From NCBI RefSeq assembly GCF_027359925.1, contig NZ_CP114767.1, positions 2,790,001 through 2,854,000 of the forward strand: 64,000 bases of DNA. The letters run 5' to 3'. The stretch comes from Hymenobacter canadensis (GTDB taxonomy: Bacteria > Bacteroidota > Bacteroidia > Cytophagales > Hymenobacteraceae). A program made the translations under genes and the position numbers. Of this stretch, positions 179 to 62,545 are shown in pieces (position 1 is the first letter of the stretch; each line of letters begins with the position of its first letter). The notes beneath the pieces are model-generated. The model did no database searches, was not told where the DNA came from, and saw nothing but the letters and a program-made list of their open reading frames with translations.

Positions 179-513
179 CGACACACTTCGGTTTCGGTTG
201 TACAAAAGATGTCTTTCGTGCTCTGAAAGCCATCTTGAAAAGCCTATACGCAAATAGCTTGCATCCGGATGATAGTGGCACTACCTCCGGCATTGGAACA
301 GGCACAACATAGCGCTACCACGATTAATTCCCTCGGCTTGCGGCCACTGCGCCAGCTTGCGGCAGCAGCAGGGCCGGCAGCAAAATTTTGGCCAAGGACT
401 TAATAGCGGAATTTTCTTATTTATCTTGTAGCCCGGCATTTCCCAAAATTGCCGGCACAAGCGAATTTTCGCCGCTTCCGACCCGCTTCACCAACCAATT
501 CCCCCAACCCCAT
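179..513. other. Divergent intergenic region, 335 bp
   Basis: This stretch lies between the truncated minus-strand gene and the amylase. No open frame with coding character is visible; the in-frame upstream extension of the amylase begins at a TTG (388) and lacks any domain. There is a short imperfect inverted repeat at 433-455 (CCGGCA and TGCCGG arms) about 60 bp before the amylase start. I find no good TAnnTTTG promoter box on either strand, so the promoters are not identified. Confidence 0.5.
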
Positions 514-2886
514 ATGCTCAATTGTACAAACGCATGGTGGCGCAAGCTCACCCTGGCCGCAGCTGCCCTTTTAGTGCTGGGCGGCCAACCCGCCAAAGCC
601 CAAAAAGTAGTGCTGCAAGGCTACTGGTGGGACTACTGGAACACCAACTACCCCAACGGCTGGGCCAACTACATTGCCCTGCTGGCCCCGCGCCTGAAAG
701 CCATGGGCATTGATGCCGTGTGGCTGCCGCCCACCATCAAGAACGGCAACCAGGGCAACGGCTACTCGCCCTTCGACAACTACGACCTGGGCGACAAGTA
801 CCAGAAAGGCTTCACGGCCACCCGCATGGGCAACAAGGATGAGCTGCTGCGCGCTGTGGCCGTGCTGCACGCCAACGGCATTGAGGTGGTGCAGGACATC
901 GTACTGAACCACAACGACGGGGCCGGCTCCCAAACCGGCGGCGGTGGCCAGGACCCGGCCGCCTGGGAAGATGGCTCGACCAGCAAGTACAAGAACTTCC
1001 GGTACGTGAGCTACAGCAAGCCCGCCACCGACGAAACGGCTGCCAACTACCTGGCCCGCAACGGCCGCTTCCCCAAAAACTGGCAGAACTTCAACCCCAA
1101 CCCCGGCAACAACTCCACCTCCGGCGACCAGAACCAGATTCTGTTCGGGCCCGATATCAGCTACTACAACGGCTCGTATGGGCAGAGCTCCAACGCCACC
1201 TTCAACCCGGCGCAGGGCGCAGACTATATGCGCAACAACCAGCGCAACTGGCTGGTGTGGTACAAAAAGCAGGAAGGCTTTGATGGCGTGCGCCTGGATG
1301 CCGTGAAGCACTTCCCAGAGTTTGCCATGGAGGATTTCCTCTACAACATGCAAAGCAACGCCGGCTGGGCCAACGGCGGCGCCACCATGTACGCCGTGGG
1401 CGAATGGGTGGGCGGCAGCGGCCAAATGGACAGCTGGGTGGCGGGCGTGCAGAACCGCGCCGGCACCTTCGATTTCTCGCTGCGCAATGCCCTGTATAGC
1501 ATCGTGAGCGGGGGCGGCAACTTCGATATCGGCTCGCTGCCGACTTATCAGCAGGGCACGCGGGTGGTGCAGATCAACGGCACTTTTGTGCACCGCACGG
1601 TGCCGTTCGTGAACAACCACGACACGTTCCGGCCCCAGGTAAGCACCACCGGCAACTACACTGGCTGGAACTCCGGCTCGGAGCTGGCCCCGCACATTGA
1701 CCCGTTCGATCCGCGTTTGTCGGCTGCGTATGCTGCCGCGCTGGCTGTGGATGGCTCGCCGCAGATTTTCTTCGAAGACCTGTTTAATATCGGCAACACG
1801 GGCAAGCGCTACTCGCACCAGCCCACCAGCACCGTCGATTTGCCCCAGCGTTCCGACATCGAGAACCTGATCTGGTGCCACCAGAATCTGCGCTTCAAGG
1901 ACGGCGCCTACAAAGTGCGCTGGCAGGCCGCCGACCACCTCGTAATTGAGCGCAGCACCAAAGCCATCATCGGCATCAACGACAACTTCTCGACCTGGCA
2001 GAACAGCACGGTTTCGTGTGATTTCGCGCCGGGCACCGTGCTCAAGGACTATTCCGGCGCCAACGGCACGGCTACCGTGACGGTGAGCGGCTCGCAGACG
2101 GTGAGCATCAACACGCCGCCCTGCAACGGCACGGCCACCGGCGGCCGCCGCGGCTACTCGGTGTGGGCCCCTGCCGGCATCGGCACCAACTATGTGCGCG
2201 CCGCCATGGCCACCACCCAGGAATGGGAGCTGGCCGATGACCTGGGCGACAGTGACAGCCGCTCCTTGCGGCAGGGTGGGCAGCTGCCGGCCTCATCCAC
2301 GGCCTACCGCACGGCGGGCCGCATCTACGTGCAATCGGGCAAAACCGTCACCTACACCCTGTTCCCCACGGATGCTACCCGCAGCCTCGCGGTGGAGCTG
2401 GTGAGCGGCACGAGTACCATCGTGAGCAGCAAAACCGGCACCGGCAACCTGGTGGGCACCTACACGCCCACGGCCACCGGCTGGCTGACGCTGCGCGCTA
2501 AGAACGCTGTGGCCACCAACCCGGCCCAGCGCGCCTTCATCAAGGCCACCTACACCGCTCCGGCCGTACTCACCAGCACCGCCCTGCGCGAAACCGGCGT
2601 GCTGGCCACCGCCAACGCCCGCACGCCGCTGGCCGGCGCCGACCTGACGGTGTACCCCAACCCCACCGCCGCCAATCGCATCGACGTGGTGCTGCAGTCG
2701 CCGACGGACGTAACGGCTACGCTGCGCCTCACGGACCTGATGGGCCGCCTCGTGCACGAGCAGAAAGTACGCCTCTACCCCGGCTCCACCGAGCAGCGCC
2801 TCCGCATCGAGCGGGCGCTGCCGGCCGGGGTATACCAGTTGAACGTGCCGGAACTGGGCCTGAGCCGCAAAGTAGCGGTGCAGTAA
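514..2886 (+). CDS. Secreted alpha-amylase (GH13) with type IX sorting domain
   Basis: This predicted enzyme of 790 residues should hydrolyse alpha-1,4-glucans outside the cell. The ATG at 514 is chosen because it gives a clear signal peptide (LTLAAAALLVLGG, cut near AKA-QK); upstream in-frame codons only offer TTG. GH13 motifs are all visible: DIVLNH at 128-133, RLDAVKH with nucleophile Asp262, GEW with acid/base Glu297, and NNHD with Asp370. After the barrel and its beta domain (to about 480) comes a Thr/Ser/Ala-rich region of unknown fold. The last 75 residues (from LTVYPNPTA) match the type A C-terminal sorting domain used by the type IX secretion system. The gene appears monocistronic and ends at a strong terminator. 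The exact product specificity cannot be read from the sequence. Confidence 0.93.
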   Translation: MLNCTNAWWRKLTLAAAALLVLGGQPAKAQKVVLQGYWWDYWNTNYPNGWANYIALLAPRLKAMGIDAVWLPPTIKNGNQGNGYSPFDNYDLGDKYQKGFTATRMGNKDELLRAVAVLHANGIEVVQDIVLNHNDGAGSQTGGGGQDPAAWEDGSTSKYKNFRYVSYSKPATDETAANYLARNGRFPKNWQNFNPNPGNNSTSGDQNQILFGPDISYYNGSYGQSSNATFNPAQGADYMRNNQRNWLVWYKKQEGFDGVRLDAVKHFPEFAMEDFLYNMQSNAGWANGGATMYAVGEWVGGSGQMDSWVAGVQNRAGTFDFSLRNALYSIVSGGGNFDIGSLPTYQQGTRVVQINGTFVHRTVPFVNNHDTFRPQVSTTGNYTGWNSGSELAPHIDPFDPRLSAAYAAALAVDGSPQIFFEDLFNIGNTGKRYSHQPTSTVDLPQRSDIENLIWCHQNLRFKDGAYKVRWQAADHLVIERSTKAIIGINDNFSTWQNSTVSCDFAPGTVLKDYSGANGTATVTVSGSQTVSINTPPCNGTATGGRRGYSVWAPAGIGTNYVRAAMATTQEWELADDLGDSDSRSLRQGGQLPASSTAYRTAGRIYVQSGKTVTYTLFPTDATRSLAVELVSGTSTIVSSKTGTGNLVGTYTPTATGWLTLRAKNAVATNPAQRAFIKATYTAPAVLTSTALRETGVLATANARTPLAGADLTVYPNPTAANRIDVVLQSPTDVTATLRLTDLMGRLVHEQKVRLYPGSTEQRLRIERALPAGVYQLNVPELGLSRKVAVQ

Positions 2887-4370: not shown

Positions 4371-6677
4371 CTAAAACAGCACGCTCACGCTGCCTTTCAC
4401 GAAAAATGGCGTGCCGGGCGTGTAGTGCAGCTCCGAGACGCCCTCGGCCGGTTCACCGGGCAGGCGGCTCAGCGTGTCAAACTGCGCTTGATTCCACTCC
4501 ACATTCAGTAGGTTTTCGGCGGTAGCCCCGAGCACGAAGCGGCCCACGGCGTAGCTGGCCACGGCATCCAGCAGGAAATAGCCTCGGGCCTGCACCGTGT
4601 TGGCCTCGTTGGCGGGGCGGGTATTGAGGTGGCGGTAGCGCAGGCTGGCGCTCAGGCCGCGCGGCTGCCTGAGCGTGAGCCCGCCCACGGTGGTGAAGCT
4701 GGGCGCCAGCGGAATGTAGTTCTCCCCTTTCGGCGCCCCCACCAGCCGGCCGTGCGCATAGTTCAGGTCTACATCGGCAAAAAGTACGCGGCTGAGCTGG
4801 TAGCGCAGCGCCACATCGGCCCCGAAGCGGCGGGTGCGGCCGGCGCTTTCCGTGAAACCCCCGTCGCCGACGTACACCAGCTCGTCCTGCAGGTGCAGGG
4901 CCCAGAAGGCGGCATTCACCACCAGCGCCGGCAGCGGCTTGAAGGTGCTGCCCACCTCGTAGCCAATGGCCCGCGGCAGCGCCGGCAACGAGTCGGCACG
5001 GTTCACGACTACGGCGCGGGCATCGTTGGAGTGAAAGCCCAGGCCCGAGCGCACGAATAGCTGCGTGTTAGGCGTGAGGTCGTAGTAGAGATTCAGCTTG
5101 GGGCTGACGCGCGCCTTAGTGGCCCGGCCCGAGGTTTCGGTATCCTGCGCATCGCGGTAGCGAAACACGAAATAATCGGCCCGCAGCGCCGCATTGAGCG
5201 TGAGCTGGTCGGTGAGCGTGAGCGTCTCGTCGAGGTAGGCGTTCAGGTTCTGCTCGAAAACCCGGCCGGCCACGATGGTGCCCGTCACCTGCCGCTTCAC
5301 CGAGTTGCGCAGGGCCACATCCACGGCATCAATGCGGGTGCCCAGGCCAAAGGTGGAGCGCAGCGCCCGGCTGCCCAGCTGGCTGGTACGCTCGTAGGTG
5401 CCGGTGTAGCCGTATATGTTGCGGCCATCGGTTTGCCGGATCTGGTCGCCCTGGTCGGGGTTTTCGAGGAAGAAGGTGAAGTTGGAAAACAGGTTGAAAT
5501 CGTAGCGCGAGTAGTAGGCCTGCTGGCGCAGCACGGCCTCGTGGGGCAGCGCAGTGGTGAGCACGGCCGTGGCGTTGGTGCGACTGGTGCTGCCGCCCTC
5601 GGTGTTGTCGATGGCGCCGAAGCGCGAAATCCGGCCGTCGCGCACGGCCCGTTCCGGCACCTGCCCTGAGGCATCCCAGCGCGAGGTGAAGTGCGAGCCC
5701 AGCAGCATCAACGACGTGCGGTCGGACAGGATACCGGTGTATTTTCCCAACCCGTTGAAGCGCCGGAAGTGCTGCGGGCTGTCGAAATAGGCGTTGGTGA
5801 AGGTATACTCGGTGGCCAGGTAGGCGCTTTCGGTCTGGTTGGACAGCAGGTGCGTGCCGGCGGGCAGCAGGTTCAGCAGGGCCACGGCGCGGCGCGTATT
5901 AAACCGCCCGATTTCCACCTTGGCCAGGCTGCTTTCCAGGGTGGTTTTGGTGCTAAACTCGCCGGAGCCGGCCGTGGCAAAATCGCCGAAACGGGCCGTG
6001 TAGGGCCCTTTGTACACGCGCAGCGCGTCCACGGTTTCGGGTATCACGAAGTGCATGTCGGCGTAGCCCTGGCCGTGGGCGTGGCTCACCATGTTCACCG
6101 GCAGCCCATCGATGCTCACGTTGAAATCGGTACCGTGGTCGACATCGAAGCCCCGGATGAAAATTTGCTCGGCCTTGCCGCCACCGGCGTGCTGGGCAAT
6201 AACCAAACCCGGCACCAGCGGCAGTAGGTCCTGCGCCGAATTCACGGGCCGCAGTAGTTGGTCGATGCGGCTGATAGCGGCCAGGCTCTGGTTGGGGTCG
6301 CGAGGCTGGGCCACGGTTACTTCGCGCAGGTTTAGGGCCACGGCAGGCAGAACCAGCGTGAGGGTTTGGGTTTCACCGGCGGCCAGCGTGAGTTGCTGAC
6401 GGCGGGTGCCATAGCCGAGCCCGGTAGCTTGGAGCGTGTAGGTGCCGGCCGCCAGTCCGCCGAGCCGGAAGTGGCCCAGGGCATCGGTGGCCGTGCCGGT
6501 AGTGCCGGCAGGCCCTTCGAGCTGCAGGCCAGTGCCCGGCAGCGGCTGCCCGGAAATAGAGTCGGTGATGGTGCCACGCAGCATGGCCAGAGTCCAGGAT
6601 TGCGCGTACGCCGGACTGCTGCTCAGGGCCAGCAGCGCCAGCCCAAGCAGGTAAATTCGTAAAAAGTAAAGGTGCAT
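4371..6677 (-). CDS. TonB-dependent outer-membrane receptor
   Basis: Predicted 768 residues from ATG 6677. A signal peptide (YLLGLALLALSSSPAYA) is followed by a carboxypeptidase-regulatory-like domain (about 30-110, GTITDSISGQPLPGTGLQLE), a plug domain (about 120-240) and a long beta barrel ending in an aromatic residue (VSVLF), as barrel proteins do. The plug contains a histidine-rich stretch (VSHAHGQGYADMHF) that could bind a metal. It should import a ligand into the periplasm using TonB energy. It is the last member of a minus-strand cluster containing HupE-like and DUF4331 genes, which suggests a metal or metal-complex ligand, but the ligand is inferred only from context. Confidence 0.9.
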   Translation of the reverse strand: MHLYFLRIYLLGLALLALSSSPAYAQSWTLAMLRGTITDSISGQPLPGTGLQLEGPAGTTGTATDALGHFRLGGLAAGTYTLQATGLGYGTRRQQLTLAAGETQTLTLVLPAVALNLREVTVAQPRDPNQSLAAISRIDQLLRPVNSAQDLLPLVPGLVIAQHAGGGKAEQIFIRGFDVDHGTDFNVSIDGLPVNMVSHAHGQGYADMHFVIPETVDALRVYKGPYTARFGDFATAGSGEFSTKTTLESSLAKVEIGRFNTRRAVALLNLLPAGTHLLSNQTESAYLATEYTFTNAYFDSPQHFRRFNGLGKYTGILSDRTSLMLLGSHFTSRWDASGQVPERAVRDGRISRFGAIDNTEGGSTSRTNATAVLTTALPHEAVLRQQAYYSRYDFNLFSNFTFFLENPDQGDQIRQTDGRNIYGYTGTYERTSQLGSRALRSTFGLGTRIDAVDVALRNSVKRQVTGTIVAGRVFEQNLNAYLDETLTLTDQLTLNAALRADYFVFRYRDAQDTETSGRATKARVSPKLNLYYDLTPNTQLFVRSGLGFHSNDARAVVVNRADSLPALPRAIGYEVGSTFKPLPALVVNAAFWALHLQDELVYVGDGGFTESAGRTRRFGADVALRYQLSRVLFADVDLNYAHGRLVGAPKGENYIPLAPSFTTVGGLTLRQPRGLSASLRYRHLNTRPANEANTVQARGYFLLDAVASYAVGRFVLGATAENLLNVEWNQAQFDTLSRLPGEPAEGVSELHYTPGTPFFVKGSVSVLF

Positions 6678-6810
6678 AGTGCCACAGCCATGACGGGCCT
6701 CATGCCGCACAGGAGGCGGGCAGAAGGCGCGTCGGGTGATAAGAAGTTGACAGAATCCGGCTTGTCAGGCAGGCCGGAAATTTCGGGCACGATGCGGCCC
6801 GAAGCACTTC

Positions 6811-7197
6811 TTATCCGTGGCGCGGCGGCGCGTAGGGCTGCTTCCCAAAACCTGCCGGCGCGGCCGGCCGCAGGCGCGGCGCCTGGGGCTTCGGGGCATA
6901 GATAAACACCGCAACCGAAGCTGGTTCGGCGGCGGCGAGGCAATGCACATCCAGCCCCTTCAGGTTACTCAGGAAGTGCAGCGGCGTTTCAGACGCGCCC
7001 GGTTTGCGCGTGGCGTACTGCTCGCCGTTGCAGTGGTCGAAGCAGTCGATTTGCAGGTAGTGGCGCTGCTGGCAGTCGGCGCTGTGCACGTAGGCGGTGG
7101 CGCGCTGCGGCGCGGGCTCCGGCCGGCCCACGAGGCCCGCACCAACTACCAGCAGGTAGTTGAGCAGCAACAGCCAGATGAGGACGGAGCGGAGCAT
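6811..7197 (-). CDS. Small Cys/His-rich exported or membrane-anchored protein
   Basis: A 128-residue product from ATG 7197. Residues 4-24 form a hydrophobic segment (SVLIWLLLLNYLLVVGAG) that should be a signal anchor or signal peptide. The following domain has closely spaced potential metal ligands: Cys42, His46, Cys52, His55, Cys56 (segment DCQQRHYLQIDCFDHC) and His85-Cys86. The C-terminus is Pro/Ala/Arg-rich. It sits between the HupE-like gene and the TonB receptor gene on the same strand, so a role as an envelope metal-binding partner of the receptor is plausible. I cannot place it in a named family. Confidence 0.7.
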   Translation of the reverse strand: MLRSVLIWLLLLNYLLVVGAGLVGRPEPAPQRATAYVHSADCQQRHYLQIDCFDHCNGEQYATRKPGASETPLHFLSNLKGLDVHCLAAAEPASVAVFIYAPKPQAPRLRPAAPAGFGKQPYAPPRHG

Positions 7198-7225
7198 GAG
7201 AGTTGTTTACTTTTTGTTGTTTGGC

Positions 7226-7302
7226 TGTCATTCCGAGCAGCGCGAGGAATCTGAGTTTGCTTGGTGTGTCTCCTCAGATTCCTCCCTGCGGTCGGAATGA
7301 CA
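7226..7302. repeat. Interspersed inverted repeat, family B copy 1
   Basis: The 77-bp unit has outer arms TGTCATTCCGA (7226-7236) and TCGGAATGACA (7292-7302), with inner arms GAGGAATCTGAG and CTCAGATTCCTC. It fills the gap between the HupE-like gene and the small Cys/His protein. A second, longer copy of the same family lies at 15421-15520. It would fold into a long hairpin in RNA or single-stranded DNA. Confidence 0.85.
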
Positions 7303-7307
7303 TATTA

Positions 7308-7967
7308 TCAAGCGAAAAACACCCGCTCCACCGTCCAGTAGGCGGCAATGAGGCCGATGACGATGGAAGCCGGCACCACGACGCGCTGCTTGTACCAGGG
7401 CTTGCCACTGAACCAGTAGCCTACCAGCCCCCAGGCCAGCAGAATCACGGCCACCTGGCCCAGCTCCACGCCCACATTGAACGCCAGCAGCGACTCCAGA
7501 AACAGCCGCCGCGGCAGCCCCAACCCGGTCAGTACGCTGGCGAAACCCATGCCGTGCACCAAGCCAAAGCCGAACACCACCACCACCCGCCACGGATTCA
7601 GCTTGCTGACGAGGATGTTTTCCAGCGCCACAAACAGGATCGACAGCGCAATAATGGGCTCAATAATGCCCGGCGGCGGCGAAATCAGCCCGTACATGGC
7701 CAGCCCCAGCGTGATGGAGTGCGCCACCGTAAAGGCCGTAGCCTGCACCAGCACCGACTTCAGACGCGGCTCCAGCAGCGCAATGCTCAGCACGAACAGG
7801 ATATGGTCGAGGCCCAGCGGGATGATGTGCTCGAAGCCCAGCTTGAGGTAAATCCAGACCGCATCGGCCTGCGAGAGTTTGCTGACGTCTACGCCGTCCA
7901 GCGCGTGGGCGCTGGCGGCGGCCGGAGCCAGCAGCAGCAACGGCAGCAGCAAACGAAAATGTAGCAT
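7308..7967 (-). CDS. HupE/UreJ-family membrane protein
   Basis: Predicted 219 residues. The ATG at 7967 gives a signal peptide (LLLPLLLLAPAAASAHA) and lies inside a REP repeat, which supplies the start codon. About six membrane segments follow. Conserved-looking motifs for this family are GLDHILFVLS, AHSITLGL and VHGMGFASVL, whose His and Asp residues could coordinate a metal in the membrane. Known members are linked to nickel or cobalt handling, although the longer Bacteroidota forms are not well studied. It lies between a TPR gene upstream and the Cys/His protein and TonB receptor genes downstream on the same strand, consistent with a shared envelope uptake function. Confidence 0.85.
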   Translation of the reverse strand: MLHFRLLLPLLLLAPAAASAHALDGVDVSKLSQADAVWIYLKLGFEHIIPLGLDHILFVLSIALLEPRLKSVLVQATAFTVAHSITLGLAMYGLISPPPGIIEPIIALSILFVALENILVSKLNPWRVVVVFGFGLVHGMGFASVLTGLGLPRRLFLESLLAFNVGVELGQVAVILLAWGLVGYWFSGKPWYKQRVVVPASIVIGLIAAYWTVERVFFA

Positions 7968-8070
7968 AGGCTTCAGCCTGTGCCGGACCAGAAGCTGCGA
8001 GCTTTTCTCTGTGCTCATATACAATGTTGCTTGAAGCTGCCAGGGCGGCACAGACTAAAGCCTATGCTAC
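7961..8070. repeat. REPIN-like element: paired GTAG-type REP sequences
   Basis: Two 24-bp units face each other: 7961-7984 on the plus strand (starting GTAGCATAGGC, ending CCTGTGCC) and 8047-8070 on the minus strand with two differences. Each unit is an imperfect hairpin (GCATAGGCT and AGCCTGTGC arms) preceded by GTA(G). The inner spacer is 62 bp. The left unit contains the start codon of the HupE-like gene; the right unit contains the TAG stop of the TPR gene, so the whole intergenic space is repeat. A second pair occurs at 16390-16496. Confidence 0.85.
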
Positions 8071-9392
8071 AAGCCAGCCAGCAGCTGCTTGCCTTCCTCG
8101 GCCAGCTCCAGGCTCAGGTGCGGGTTGATGGCTAGCGCCTGCCGGATCAGAGCCTGGCCCTCGGCGGCGTGGCCGGTTTTGGTGGCAATCAGGCCGGCGC
8201 GGCAGAGCAGCGTGGGGTTTTGGGAGTTGGTGCGGCGGGCCTGCGTGATAAGCTTGCGGGCCGCGGCGTATTCGCCGCGCTTGTAGTGCACCCAGGCCAG
8301 CGTTTCCTGCACGTCGATGTTGTCGGGGCGGCGCTCGTACTCGGCTTTGGCGTGCTCGAGGGCTTTGTCGGGCTCGTTGGTTTTGAGGTAGGCGTAGGCC
8401 AGCTCCCGGTCGGCGTAGTGGCCCATCTGCTCGTTGTCGTCGGCTTCCTTGGCGTCGGTAGCCAGCATTTTGATGGCCTCGCGGGCCATGGCGTTGGCTT
8501 TAGCCGGCTCGTGGTTGAGGCGGTAGAGGTCGGTCAGCTCATCGGCAAAAGCATAGTCTTTCACCGTGGCGCGGGCCTTAAGAAAGTGCGCAATGGCCGC
8601 CGGGTAGTCGTGGCGGGCTTTGGCAATGCGGCCGAGGCCGGCCAGCGCGTAGGCGTAGCCAGGGCGGGCGGCTAGGGAAGTCTGGTACTGCTGCTCGGCA
8701 CGGGCAAGGTCGCCGGTGGTTTCGTAGAGGTGGCCCAGCGTGATGCGCGACCATTCGGTTTGTTCCAGACCGCCCACGCCGGCCTTGGTGGCCATATCCA
8801 TGGCCTCAATGGCGCCGGGCGCGTCGCCGTGGATTTCGCGCAGGTACGACACCCGGGCGTAGGCCCGCAGGTCGGGGCGCACGGTGTTCATCTTGTCGGC
8901 CATGCGGACGGCTTCGGGGTAGCGGCCCAGCTCCACGTTGGCGTCGCAGAGCAGCCCATACACGAAGGCGTTGTTGGGGTTGAGCTGCACGGCTTGTTCG
9001 GCCAGGGCCAGGCCTTCGGTGAAGTGGTGCTGGGTGAGGCTGAGCGAGGCTTTGCAGCACAGCGCCTCAAAGTTGTCGGGCTCCCGGCGCAGAATCTCGT
9101 CGAGCAGCTTCACGGCGGCCATGTCGTAGTATGGATGGTCGCCGGTCACGCGGCCTTCCTGCATGTAGGCCTGGGCCAGCAGCAGCTGGGCCTTGGTGTC
9201 GTCGGGCTGTTCGCGCAGGCGGGCCAGCAGGCCGCCCACGGCTTGCTGGGTGTTCACCCACTCGCCGCCCAGGGCCAAGTCGCCGTGCCGGGGCTTGAGG
9301 GCGGGCACCGGCTCGGGCTTCCGAAAGAAAACCAGCGCCGCCACCGCCGCCATAAAGCTCAGCAGTAAAATCGGGTAAAGATATTTTCGCAC
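8067..9392 (-). CDS. Membrane-anchored tetratricopeptide repeat protein
   Basis: Predicted 441 residues from a GTG at 9392; the frame extends upstream to a TTG at 9464, but the GTG places a signal anchor (YLYPILLLSFMAAVAALVFF) right at the N-terminus. The rest is a run of TPR-like helical pairs from about residue 60 to the end, such as LLAQAYMQEGR, YGLLCDANVELGRYPEA and LAYAYLKTNEPDKALEHA. Such proteins act as scaffolds for other proteins. It lies between DUF4331 and HupE-like genes, a combination I recall as recurrent in Bacteroidota genomes. Its TAG stop falls inside a REP unit. Partner and function are unknown. Confidence 0.85.
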   Translation of the reverse strand: MRKYLYPILLLSFMAAVAALVFFRKPEPVPALKPRHGDLALGGEWVNTQQAVGGLLARLREQPDDTKAQLLLAQAYMQEGRVTGDHPYYDMAAVKLLDEILRREPDNFEALCCKASLSLTQHHFTEGLALAEQAVQLNPNNAFVYGLLCDANVELGRYPEAVRMADKMNTVRPDLRAYARVSYLREIHGDAPGAIEAMDMATKAGVGGLEQTEWSRITLGHLYETTGDLARAEQQYQTSLAARPGYAYALAGLGRIAKARHDYPAAIAHFLKARATVKDYAFADELTDLYRLNHEPAKANAMAREAIKMLATDAKEADDNEQMGHYADRELAYAYLKTNEPDKALEHAKAEYERRPDNIDVQETLAWVHYKRGEYAAARKLITQARRTNSQNPTLLCRAGLIATKTGHAAEGQALIRQALAINPHLSLELAEEGKQLLAGL

Positions 9393-9462
9393 AGAAACGG
9401 GAGTTGAGGGTTCGGCAGGAAAGACAGGACGATGGTGCTGCCGGTTGCGCCGGCTACCGCCC

Positions 9463-9496
9463 AAAAGATAGCCGGACTCATCCGAGCCCGGCTATC
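9463..9496 (-). terminator. Weak internal terminator or attenuator
   Basis: A hairpin with arms GATAGCCGG-CTC (9467-9479) and GAG-CCGGCTATC (9484-9496) is followed on the minus strand by only four T residues. It lies just downstream of the DUF4331 gene and could lower transcription into the TPR and HupE-like genes without stopping it. Confidence 0.6.
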
Positions 9497-9560
9497 AATC
9501 TATTCAGCTGGTAAGCAGAGCACCCGGCCGGGGCCGGATGCTGCGCCTGGGTAGTTCAGG

Positions 9561-11630
9561 CTAGCGCTGGTGCGCAAGCCGGATGGTTTGCAGCACCGTC
9601 GAACCGTTCGACAGGGTGGCTACATAGATACCAGCGGCCGTGCCGGACGGCATGCGCCATTCGTACTCGAAGGCGCCGGGCTTGTGGGCTTTGCCTTTCA
9701 TCGGCGTGGCAATCACGCGGCCGTTCAGGTCGGTGATGCGCAGCGTCAGGTCCGACTTCACGCCTACTTCGTAGCGGAACGTGGTCTGGTCAACTACCGG
9801 ATTCGGGAAAGCCACGAAGTTGTCAACCGTGTTAGGCTGCAAACCGAGGCCGCCGGTGGCGTTGCGCTGCGACAGAGCTACACGCTGGGCTTTCGTGCCG
9901 CTCCAAGGAGTCTGGGCATACGGGAAGCCGGCTTTGAACGTGGTATCGTTGGCTTCGATGCCGGTACGGAACCCCACTACGCCGAGCAACTGCGCCGTTA
10001 CCGGGCTAGTGGCCGTGGCCGTGTAGTCGTCATAGAACAGGCCAATGGCGGCCAGTACGGCACCACCTACGGCTTGCAGCTCAATGCGCGTCACGTCATC
10101 TTCCAAACGACGACCGTTCGGGAAGCCGTCCATGTTCGGGATGTTCTGCAGCGTGGCCGTTGTGTTGTAGCGTGGATCTGTCAGACCCAGTACGGCTGCC
10201 TGCAGCAGACCTTCGGAGCTGAAATCAGCCGAGTTGCGGGGCGTAACAGGCACGGCCATGTTCAGGCGGAGCATGTCGCCGAGCACGGGCAGGAAGTTAC
10301 TGACGAACGGCTTGCCAGCGGCCAGCGGATTGCGGGCAGGCTTGCCCGTAGCCAGCTGGTACGGCGGCAGGTTGGGCACACCGGTATGGAAGATCGGCAG
10401 GATATCGACGGAGCGAGGCTTGCCGGCACGCAACAAATACGGACCGAACGTAGCATCAGCAAACACGGTACCGGCGCGCTGGGCAGCCGTCAGGCCCGAT
10501 ACGCCATTGGCGCCGTTGCGGAAGTCGAAAGCCTGCAGCGAGTTGCTCTGGATGCGCAGCGGCGACAAACCGGGTACGGCAGCGCCGTAGTAGGTGGTGC
10601 CGTTGGCCGTGCCTTCAGCCATATACAGGCCGAGCTCGGGGTTGGAGAGGTAGTCGTCGGTGGTGGCGTCCTCGGTGTACGGCGTGCGCGAGTTCCAGCG
10701 GTCCTTGCCGCCGATGGGCACGATTACTTCGTTGGTGAGCGGCATACCGATGCGCGACACCTGAATCCAGTTGCCGGAGTGCGCCTGCGTGCCATCAGCA
10801 TTGAGCGTGCGCAGGGCGGGACGGCTGGCCGAAGCCCACACGCCAATCACGAAGTCCGGATCGAGGATGGTAGTGGCCTGCGCGGCCGTTTTGCCGTCTT
10901 TCTGCAGCAACGAAATCGGAATCTGCAGGGCAATGGCGTGGGTGTTCTTGCGGGCCAGCCCGTCGCGGGCGCTGGCCGTCCGGATACCGCCCAAATCGAA
11001 AATACCGCCCAGATCTGCAAAGAACGGATCATCGGTCGGGCCGCAGAATACTTTCACACCGTTGGCCGCCGTCTGGATAGCGCCGGTCATCAGGGCCTCA
11101 TAGGTAGTGTTGAGGCCAGCGGCGCTGGTGATGGAGCGCGGGCCTACGTTGGTAGGCGGCACGATGCCGTTGGTCACCAGCGTGGTGGTGGCCCCACCGC
11201 GGATGGCCTCCAGCGTGTAGGTGGTTTTCAGGTTCTGCTGCCCCAGCCGAATGTTGAAGAACGTGGTGGGGTCTTGGTTGATGCGCGAGAACGTGAAGCG
11301 GTAGGTGATGTCGTCGCCGGTAGTGGTGGCGCTGTTCTTCACGTGAATCTCGTAGCGCACGTTTTCGCCGAACGTGTTGTAGTTGGGGCCGCCCTGGGGC
11401 AGCTCCAACGGTATGTAGTTGGCGATGATGGTTACGGTTTCCGCGGCGTCGGGGCTACGGAAGGCATACAGGTCGGTGTTGTCGGCCAACGGGTCATCGG
11501 CAATAAGGGGGGCTTCGCGGTGGCTGGAAGCTTCCAGACGGGTGCCCTGGCCACTCCAGGCGACGGCGCCTACCACAGCGGTGGTAGCGGCGGCCAGCAT
11601 GAGAATGGGACGCGTAATGTTTTTTGCCAT
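9561..11630 (-). CDS. Secreted DUF4331 protein with type IX sorting domain
   Basis: Predicted 689 residues from ATG 11630, which gives a clear signal region (ILMLAAATTAVVGAVAW). The mature part starts with the DUF4331 hallmark ASSHREAPLIADDPLADNTD, followed by YAFRSPD and a long beta-rich region with repeated references to the same fold (residues about 50-600). The last 80 residues (from VAFPNPVVDQTTF) form a type A C-terminal sorting domain, so the protein should be carried to the cell surface by the type IX system. The biochemical role of DUF4331 proteins is not known to me. It is the first gene of the cluster with TPR, HupE-like, Cys/His and TonB receptor genes. Confidence 0.9.
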   Translation of the reverse strand: MAKNITRPILMLAAATTAVVGAVAWSGQGTRLEASSHREAPLIADDPLADNTDLYAFRSPDAAETVTIIANYIPLELPQGGPNYNTFGENVRYEIHVKNSATTTGDDITYRFTFSRINQDPTTFFNIRLGQQNLKTTYTLEAIRGGATTTLVTNGIVPPTNVGPRSITSAAGLNTTYEALMTGAIQTAANGVKVFCGPTDDPFFADLGGIFDLGGIRTASARDGLARKNTHAIALQIPISLLQKDGKTAAQATTILDPDFVIGVWASASRPALRTLNADGTQAHSGNWIQVSRIGMPLTNEVIVPIGGKDRWNSRTPYTEDATTDDYLSNPELGLYMAEGTANGTTYYGAAVPGLSPLRIQSNSLQAFDFRNGANGVSGLTAAQRAGTVFADATFGPYLLRAGKPRSVDILPIFHTGVPNLPPYQLATGKPARNPLAAGKPFVSNFLPVLGDMLRLNMAVPVTPRNSADFSSEGLLQAAVLGLTDPRYNTTATLQNIPNMDGFPNGRRLEDDVTRIELQAVGGAVLAAIGLFYDDYTATATSPVTAQLLGVVGFRTGIEANDTTFKAGFPYAQTPWSGTKAQRVALSQRNATGGLGLQPNTVDNFVAFPNPVVDQTTFRYEVGVKSDLTLRITDLNGRVIATPMKGKAHKPGAFEYEWRMPSGTAAGIYVATLSNGSTVLQTIRLAHQR

Positions 11631-15420: not shown

Positions 15421-15520
15421 AAAGAACGTCATTCCGAGCGGAGCGAGGAATCTTGCCAGCGTAGTAACTGATTCTACCACACTGGCGAGATTCCTCGCTC
15501 CGCTCGGAATGACGTTCTTT
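15421..15520. repeat. Interspersed inverted repeat, family B copy 2
   Basis: This 100-bp element has 39-bp arms (15421-15459 and 15482-15520) with a single mismatch, around a 22-bp centre. The arms contain GTCATTCCGAGCGGAGCGAG. It shares the core GTCATTCCGAGC..GCGAGGAATCT with 7226-7302. It may serve as a terminator between the convergent anmK and 15544-16017 genes. Confidence 0.9.
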
Positions 15521-61882: not shown

Positions 61883-62545
61883 TTAGTAATTGTCGGTATC
61901 GTCCTCCGGCTCTGCCTCCGGCTCTGCCTCCGTGTTGCCGGAGTCGGCACCGTAGCCCATCGATTGGGCGTACTTTTCAAGCTTTTCTTTCAGGAAATTG
62001 CGGGCCCGGTGCAACCGGGACCGTACCGTACCGATAGGGATATCCAGCACTTTGGCCATTTCCTCGTAGGTGAACCCTTCCAGGTCGCAGAGGATGATGA
62101 CGGTGCGGAAATCCACGGGCAGCGAGTTGAGTGCGCTAGCCACTTCGTCGCCGATGAGGTCGCGCACGGCTTGCTGCCGCATATCAGACGAGGTACCACC
62201 CGCGTCGCTGTCGGACTCGACGTCTTCCGAATTGTAGTAGCCCTCAATTTCGCTGTAGTCGACCTTGGCGGGTTGTTTACTCTTCTTCCGGAAGTCGTTG
62301 ATGAACGAGTTTTTCAGGATGCGAAACAGCCATGCCTTGGCGTTGGTTCCCTGCTCGAAGTACTCGAAGAAGCGGTACGCCTTCAGATAGGTCTCCTGCA
62401 CAAGGTCGTTGGCGTCGTCTTCATCGAGGGTGAGACGGAACGCGAAATTGTACAGAGAGTCGATTACAGGCATCAATTCGGCCTGAAACCGGCGGTCTTT
62501 TTCTTCTTTACTAAGCTTCGGAACCCGTTCGGGAGAGTCGCTCAT
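61883..62545 (-). CDS. ECF-type RNA polymerase sigma factor
   Basis: Predicted 220 residues. Region 2 (LYNFAFRLTLDEDDANDLVQ, AWLFRILKNSFINDFRKKSK) and region 4 (LPVDFRTVIILCDLEGFTYE, IPIGTVRSRLHRARNFLKEK) are clear. The linker is longer than usual and acidic (YYNSEDVESDSDAGGTSSD), and the C-terminus is a Glu/Asp-rich tail (NTEAEPEAEPEDDTDNY). It is the first gene of the set with the anti-sigma, gmk and nadD genes. Confidence 0.94.
   Translation of the reverse strand: MSDSPERVPKLSKEEKDRRFQAELMPVIDSLYNFAFRLTLDEDDANDLVQETYLKAYRFFEYFEQGTNAKAWLFRILKNSFINDFRKKSKQPAKVDYSEIEGYYNSEDVESDSDAGGTSSDMRQQAVRDLIGDEVASALNSLPVDFRTVIILCDLEGFTYEEMAKVLDIPIGTVRSRLHRARNFLKEKLEKYAQSMGYGADSGNTEAEPEAEPEDDTDNY

Follow-up and report, generated by a model that had tools for sequence, protein, structure and literature searches.

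Genes and hairpins of the locus

The window, which means here the whole 64-kb stretch of DNA analyzed (C1:2790001-2854000 of a 5.09-Mb genome that resembles Hymenobacter in its protein matches), carries five consecutive genes on the minus strand between positions 4371 and 11630, and all five open reading frames (ORFs) named by the initial annotation were confirmed. The gene at 9561 to 11630 encodes a DUF4331 protein of 689 amino acids with ATG 11630 as the likelier start by eye, which is covered by PF14224 over positions 1 to 421 of the 421 profile positions with 430 bits (cut-off 27). A type IX C-terminal sorting domain, encoded by positions 9585 to 9809 of the same strand, was recognized by TIGR04183 with 28.1 bits (cut-off 23), and PF18962 reached 20.7 bits, which is below its cut-off of 27. 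The AlphaFold model of this protein is mediocre, with a mean pLDDT of 63.4, and the matches from its structure comparison are taken up by the C-terminal beta-sandwich; a search of the PDB yielded no sequence relative of DUF4331 at an E value of 1 or better.

The next gene (8067 to 9392, minus strand) encodes a tetratricopeptide repeat (TPR) protein that matches PF14559 with 76 bits and other TPR families and has, by eye, one hydrophobic membrane helix at the N terminus; its ORF opens at 9464, and GTG 9392 is the likelier start by eye. It is followed by a permease gene (7308 to 7967, minus strand; ORF opening at 8051, likelier start by eye ATG 7967), the product of which passes the HupE/UreJ_2 profile PF13795 with 157.2 bits at a cut-off of 24.5 and contains the motifs HX6DH and VHGMGFA. 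HX6DH was also found in its kin, and HX5DH, the nickel motif of HupE, in the permeases of four other loci (L009, L018, L023, and L038).

A small gene at 6811 to 7197 (minus strand) encodes a Cys/His envelope protein of 128 amino acids that gave no Pfam or NCBIfam match at an E value of 0.1. In 32 aligned sequences, C42, C52, C56, H38, and H85 are invariant. There were 111 homologues, 19 of which carry an organism name: 14 from Hymenobacter, 4 from metagenome bins labeled “Janthinobacterium lividum,” and 1 from “Microvirga sp. STR05,” which is a Hymenobacter in UniRef. Nearly all named kin are thus from one genus, and the protein, previously taken for a fixed member of the set, is better described as a genus-level accessory outside the core that may assist the receptor locally.

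The last gene, at 4371 to 6677 of the minus strand (ORF opening at 6710, likelier start by eye ATG 6677), encodes a TonB-dependent receptor with matches to PF00593, PF07715, and PF13620 (CarboxypepD_reg). Its plug had been claimed to be rich in histidines, and this was borne out for the segment of ORF residues 174 to 220 (6051 to 6191, minus strand): in the numbering of the 779-amino-acid ORF, of 22 aligned receptors, 21 have H174, H192, H210, and H212 and 19 have H220, and the first four residues were invariant in a separate alignment of 16 receptors.

Two hairpins interrupt the gene run, so that a single transcript should not be assumed. A terminator-like hairpin followed by TTTT is located between the DUF4331 and TPR genes (9463 to 9496, minus strand; RNA fold of 51 nucleotides, −24.9 kcal/mol), and it could make the DUF4331 mRNA much more abundant than that of the downstream genes. 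Between the permease gene and the small gene is a long REP-like hairpin (7227 to 7301, assigned to neither strand; 118-nucleotide stretch, −44.1 kcal/mol, z −6.7). The inverted repeat, GTCATTCCGAGC..., occurs in two copies in the window, at 7227 to 7301 and at 15428 to 15513, the first of which has the very stable fold. Rfam predicted no metal riboswitch within the window, the sole matches being four tRNAs.

An HscA/DnaK-like gene is located divergently upstream of the cassette, as in both other fetched genomes of the genus, and a YkuD_2 protein is encoded downstream. Near the cluster, window positions 388 to 2886 encode an alpha-amylase that carries a type IX sorting tail.

Distribution of the gene set

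DUF4331 was present in 38 of 296 sampled Bacteroidota genomes. The gene is full-length in 19 of them, among which is the genome studied here, and in the other 19 the matches are spread over short frames. The counts exclude the window's own locus; the remaining 18 loci with a full-length gene were retrieved. The exact order of five genes was present in 2 of these 18, both from the same genus (G072 and G166), and all five genes as a conserved unit, as originally proposed, were dropped as a candidate. A TPR gene follows DUF4331 in 17 of the 18 full-length loci and in 18 of the 19 split loci, although the match at one of the latter (L140) is weak, with 22 bits; HupE is part of the set in 7 of the 18 full-length loci, and a receptor gene is located within the same-strand run in 9 of these 18 and in 8 of the 19 split loci, with a divergent receptor gene in L127. 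The association of DUF4331, TPR protein, permease, and receptor is beyond chance. The core is DUF4331-TPR-permease or DUF4331-TPR-receptor, three or four genes, for which gene order is conserved; the conservation of the five-gene order is at the level of the genus.

The 19 split cases (L113 to L124 and L125 to L143) are composed of an N-terminal half of 216 to 239 amino acids and an adjacent C-terminal half that begins like a lipoprotein; in L130, both halves match PF14224. Tandem pairs of DUF4331 genes were observed at L002, L004, and L007, with one copy per pair fused to or carrying additional C-terminal sequence.

The receptor is an optional and not, as had been assumed, a constant member. 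With a profile of 16 receptors, and with at most 28 or at most 9 candidates per genome scored in the receptor searches, it was found as a single copy in 25 of the 38 DUF4331 genomes, with nothing weaker down to an E value of 1e-40; in six of them (G033, G126, G130, G158, G178, and G254), this copy is away from DUF4331. No receptor was found anywhere in the remaining 13 of the 38, including all six genomes of one family with the split type, which indicates that import across the outer membrane is not universal. In a sample of 119 genomes of the class, which overlaps the first sample in this genome and two others, the receptor was present in all 7 DUF4331 genomes and in 5 of 112 genomes lacking DUF4331 (Fisher p 1.4e-8, with no correction for relatedness of the genomes). 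The five genomes that have the receptor family in the absence of DUF4331 are G025, G099, G304, G312, and G397.

Similar sets are present outside Bacteroidota. A tblastn search of plasmid records returned 34 with DUF4331, 13 of which were opened. Streptomyces loci on plasmids contain DUF4331, TPR, and a “nickel transporter,” and one of these loci has a class F sortase as well; those of Comamonadaceae, Marinobacter, and Lichenicola contain DUF4331, a TPR-like protein, and HupE; and a Nostoc locus contains DUF4331, TPR, and NicO. A HupE or NicO permease is joined to the cassette in Actinobacteria, Chloroflexi, Proteobacteria, and one Nostoc, and the NicO family PF03824 fills the permease slot in the Streptomyces and Nostoc cassettes.

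From a scan of the contigs of named genomes, the best 80 of 579 relatives were retained. This selection is biased toward sequences close to the Miltoncostaea query and contains many Streptomyces loci, which are kin and not independent cases. In these best 80 of 579, a TPR gene follows DUF4331 in 60 and a permease gene is present in addition in 47 (59 and 46 by a stricter count of distance). Another 17 have no recognized downstream partner, some of them owing to contig ends, and 3 show a sortase downstream, with TPR and NicO upstream; 12 of the 80 loci have less than 3 kb of sequence downstream. An acidobacterial contig (L058) has the order DUF4331-TPR-HupE-TonB receptor, which is that of the window minus the small gene. 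Apart from synteny among Streptomyces loci, clustering of the neighboring ORFs pointed to no clear additional partner. In some Actinobacteria (L031, L089, L108, and L110), a gene for a class F sortase adjoins that for DUF4331, which hints at anchoring to the cell wall.

A separate search, using two reference proteins and a 50-bit limit under which misextended ORFs may hide some cases, detected an ECF sigma factor gene upstream of DUF4331, at a distance of no more than 2 kb, in 40 of 130 loci. Of these, 31 were in the first kilobase (125 loci with that much sequence) and 9 in the second (124 loci); none were found 2 to 8 kb upstream in the 130 loci, and there were seven scattered matches downstream. 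By set, they occurred in 3 of 18 full-length Bacteroidota loci, 1 of 13 plasmid loci, 30 of the 80 contig loci (best 80 of 579), and 6 of 19 split loci. The link recurs in Bacteroidota, in Pseudoalteromonas (a plasmid locus with ECF sigma factor, anti-sigma factor, and DUF4331), and on contigs titled Actinobacteria, Chloroflexi, and Acidobacteria, and RskA_C is one anti-sigma partner. No such gene is located beside the cassette in the window, where the sole ECF-like ORF in this search is at 61883 to 62545. The ECF system treated in the passages of PMC7730460 is another one.

Histidines at the predicted mature N termini

The DUF4331 family has a single invariant histidine across three alignments, and this residue is in the third position of the predicted mature protein. 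All 53 DUF4331 proteins that had been found by profile or tblastn, thus with no motif filter, display an X-X-His sequence at the predicted mature N terminus, the triplet being SSH in 33, ADH in 19, and SDH in 1. Directly before the triplet, the −3/−1 rule for signal peptidase is satisfied in 52 of 53 proteins; at other cut positions within eight residues of it, at most 33 of 53 satisfy this rule. Sequence conservation begins abruptly. In the window, the codons for Ser35-Ser36-His37 are at 11520 to 11528 of the minus strand, and the predicted cut site follows a long polar stretch (SGQGTRLEA/SSH), which makes it weaker than in relatives.

These counts exclude the loci L033 to L112, because one of the two patterns used to find them contains ASSHREAP; including them does not change the picture but makes it partly circular. 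Likewise, SSHRE was present in 117 of the 120 matches listed (8,000 candidates scored), which share words with the query and are not independent. A free N terminus with X-X-His is the ATCUN arrangement, which binds Cu(II) and Ni(II). If the signal peptide is removed before the triplet, as predicted, the DUF4331 chain would start with a putative ATCUN site for Cu(II) or Ni(II).

A histidine is also predicted at the N terminus of the permeases. In 11 of 14 HupE proteins of the cassettes, including that of the window (ASA/HALDG by eye, codon at 7905 to 7907, minus strand), it is the first residue after the predicted signal peptide, versus 1 of 20 controls, which were HupE proteins from other places in Bacteroidota genomes; the one positive control (L154) was negative by script and was counted because a signal peptide and histidine were visible by eye. 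The cassette HupE proteins of L009, L018, and L019 are without a signal peptide, and this genome encodes a second HupE, which lacks both a signal peptide and an N-terminal histidine. In NicO/TauE-type permeases of the cassettes, a histidine follows the predicted signal peptide in 47 of 52.

Metal, mechanism, and comparison with known systems

The initial annotation had read the genes as an uptake system and left the metal open. This reading was upheld in spirit and revised with respect to the unit, which is the core of three or four genes; what was supported is a conserved set, seemingly not described before, the features of which suggest that it handles a transition metal at the cell surface. 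The open-access full texts that were searched yielded neither a paper recognized as describing the DUF4331 cassette nor one naming DUF4331. The genes may represent a cassette for capture and transfer of a metal at the cell surface, most likely copper(II), with a probability of about 45%. DUF4331 would reach the cell surface, in this genome through type IX secretion, and its N-terminal Ser-Ser-His would grip Cu(II) or Ni(II) after removal of the signal peptide. The loaded protein, or the metal freed from it, would be taken by the TonB receptor with its conserved plug histidines, and the metal would enter the periplasm. At the inner membrane, the TPR protein might hold the partners together, a scaffold role that is the weakest step of the model, and the HupE permease, starting with a free histidine, would move the metal into the cell. 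Cells lacking an outer membrane would do without the receptor, and the NicO or HupE permease would follow directly. Control of the set by an ECF sigma factor is probable in some lineages.

The choice of the metal depends on the gene content of the DUF4331 genomes and on the proteins related to the permease. Strong matches to urease were present in 4 of the 38 genomes (G072, G166, G033, and G154) and to NiFe hydrogenase in 3 (G103, G150, and G190), one of which was partial; CbiC was found in 1 of 38, with its controls positive in 7 of 14. Ni-SOD was found in none of the 38, with its positive control silent too. COX1 was present in all 38, which is only permissive because COX1 is universal in aerobes. 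Users of nickel or cobalt are thus rare among these genomes and all of them possess COX1, which favors copper and speaks against a general role of nickel or cobalt as the cargo. In the passages of PMC12537917 from 2025, domains with an N-terminal histidine on HupE/UreJ-2 permeases, named anglerases, bind Cu(II) with Kd values of 74 and 62 nM and Ni(II) more weakly; for the N-terminal-His families DUF4198 and DUF6702, the same passages indicate a preference for Ni(II). Copper is favored as first choice, and nickel, or both metals, may be the cargo. Nickel on the strength of the name of the permease alone was dropped.

An uptake of nickel, or cobalt, with DUF4331 and receptor gathering Ni(II) and HupE or NicO importing it, nevertheless deserves consideration, since the permeases match PF13795 or PF03824, Ni(II) is also bound by ATCUN sites and N-terminal histidines, and both sister genomes with the five-gene order carry urease. 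HupE is moreover said to be a nickel transporter in Rhizobium, by a report of Brito from 2010. This reading is nevertheless rather unlikely: this genome has no match for urease, NiFe hydrogenase, or CbiC, and strong urease or NiFe matches occur in only 7 of the 38 DUF4331 genomes. A slightly better chance, on the unlikely side as well, is given to protection from the metal, by which DUF4331 would sequester excess copper or nickel outside and the permease would export it. NicO relatives include exporters such as RcnA, and the long His-rich loops and PGHGKT motifs of the NicO-type permeases in the cassettes presumably resemble those of RcnA; the ECF sigma genes upstream and the one third of DUF4331 genomes without a receptor would also fit. 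A TonB receptor works inward, however, and its family tracks DUF4331, and the relatives of HupE are importers.

Least probable of all is that no metal is involved and that DUF4331, once exported, serves as an enzyme or coat protein, the production or export of which is aided by the TPR protein and a membrane protein of the LysE clan, with the histidine having a structural role. Proteins of this clan have varied roles, and three Rhodobacterales plasmid loci (L022, L028, and L030) have DUF4331 adjoining a type II secretion cluster and an A24 peptidase, with no TPR protein or permease recognized. Conservation also continues past the histidine (SSHREAP), so that this segment may pack into the fold. 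On the other hand, the histidine is kept while its neighbors change between SSH, SDH, and ADH, and the permeases carry an N-terminal histidine of their own.

Capture and transfer of copper at the surface, as preferred here, would unite DUF4331, the TPR protein, the permease and, in outer-membrane bacteria, the receptor into one testable system over many phyla; the prediction is precise to one residue and joins several unannotated families. In passages of PMC12914433 and PMC8610252, acquisition of copper by bacteria is described as poorly known, with few outer-membrane copper importers identified. A broader proposal, to be regarded as tentative and held with less conviction than the cassette itself, is that DUF4331 is the founding member of a class of protein metallophores that spans the bacteria. 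Its members would use the sole invariant histidine at mature position 3 as an ATCUN claw, would be exported by the route of the respective lineage (type IX tail, sortase, or type II neighbors), and would be paired with a TPR protein and a His-first permease, so that the metal may pass between two free N termini.

The cassette is, in its predicted way of working, like protein-assisted metal uptake, and it has the defining features of none of the described uptake systems that were tested. The exported hemophore HasA is a capture protein that feeds the TonB receptor HasR, which is alike in working and likened by function alone, with a different ligand. The NicO permeases (PF03824), which occupy the same slot in the Streptomyces and Nostoc cassettes, possess a long N-terminal HPLGN domain, whereas the window uses HupE. 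The receptor of the window scored 24.7 bits with the OprC/NosA model TIGR01778, compared with a cut-off of 472, and is by eye without cysteine from its likely start onward, so that the CxxxM-HxM site of OprC/NosA is absent. In the passages of PMC8610252, azurin, which binds copper and is secreted by Pseudomonas aeruginosa, is in a similar manner proposed to load the TonB receptor OprC; azurin is a cupredoxin, unlike DUF4331, and its contact to OprC is disputed there. CrtA/BfrG, likened by description, is a TonB receptor for copper complexes with an essential histidine, and HupE does not appear in the passages of PMC12914433 on it. For the anglerases Ang-1 and Ang-2, the passages of PMC12537917 name neither DUF4331 nor TPR as neighbors and describe the permease as preceded by an Ang domain of about 175 residues, whereas the window permease is without such a domain and has about 30 residues between its histidine and the first membrane helix. 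Like the anglerases, which are proposed in these passages to fish copper or nickel, the window combines a PF13795 permease with a histidine that, as predicted, directly follows the signal peptide.
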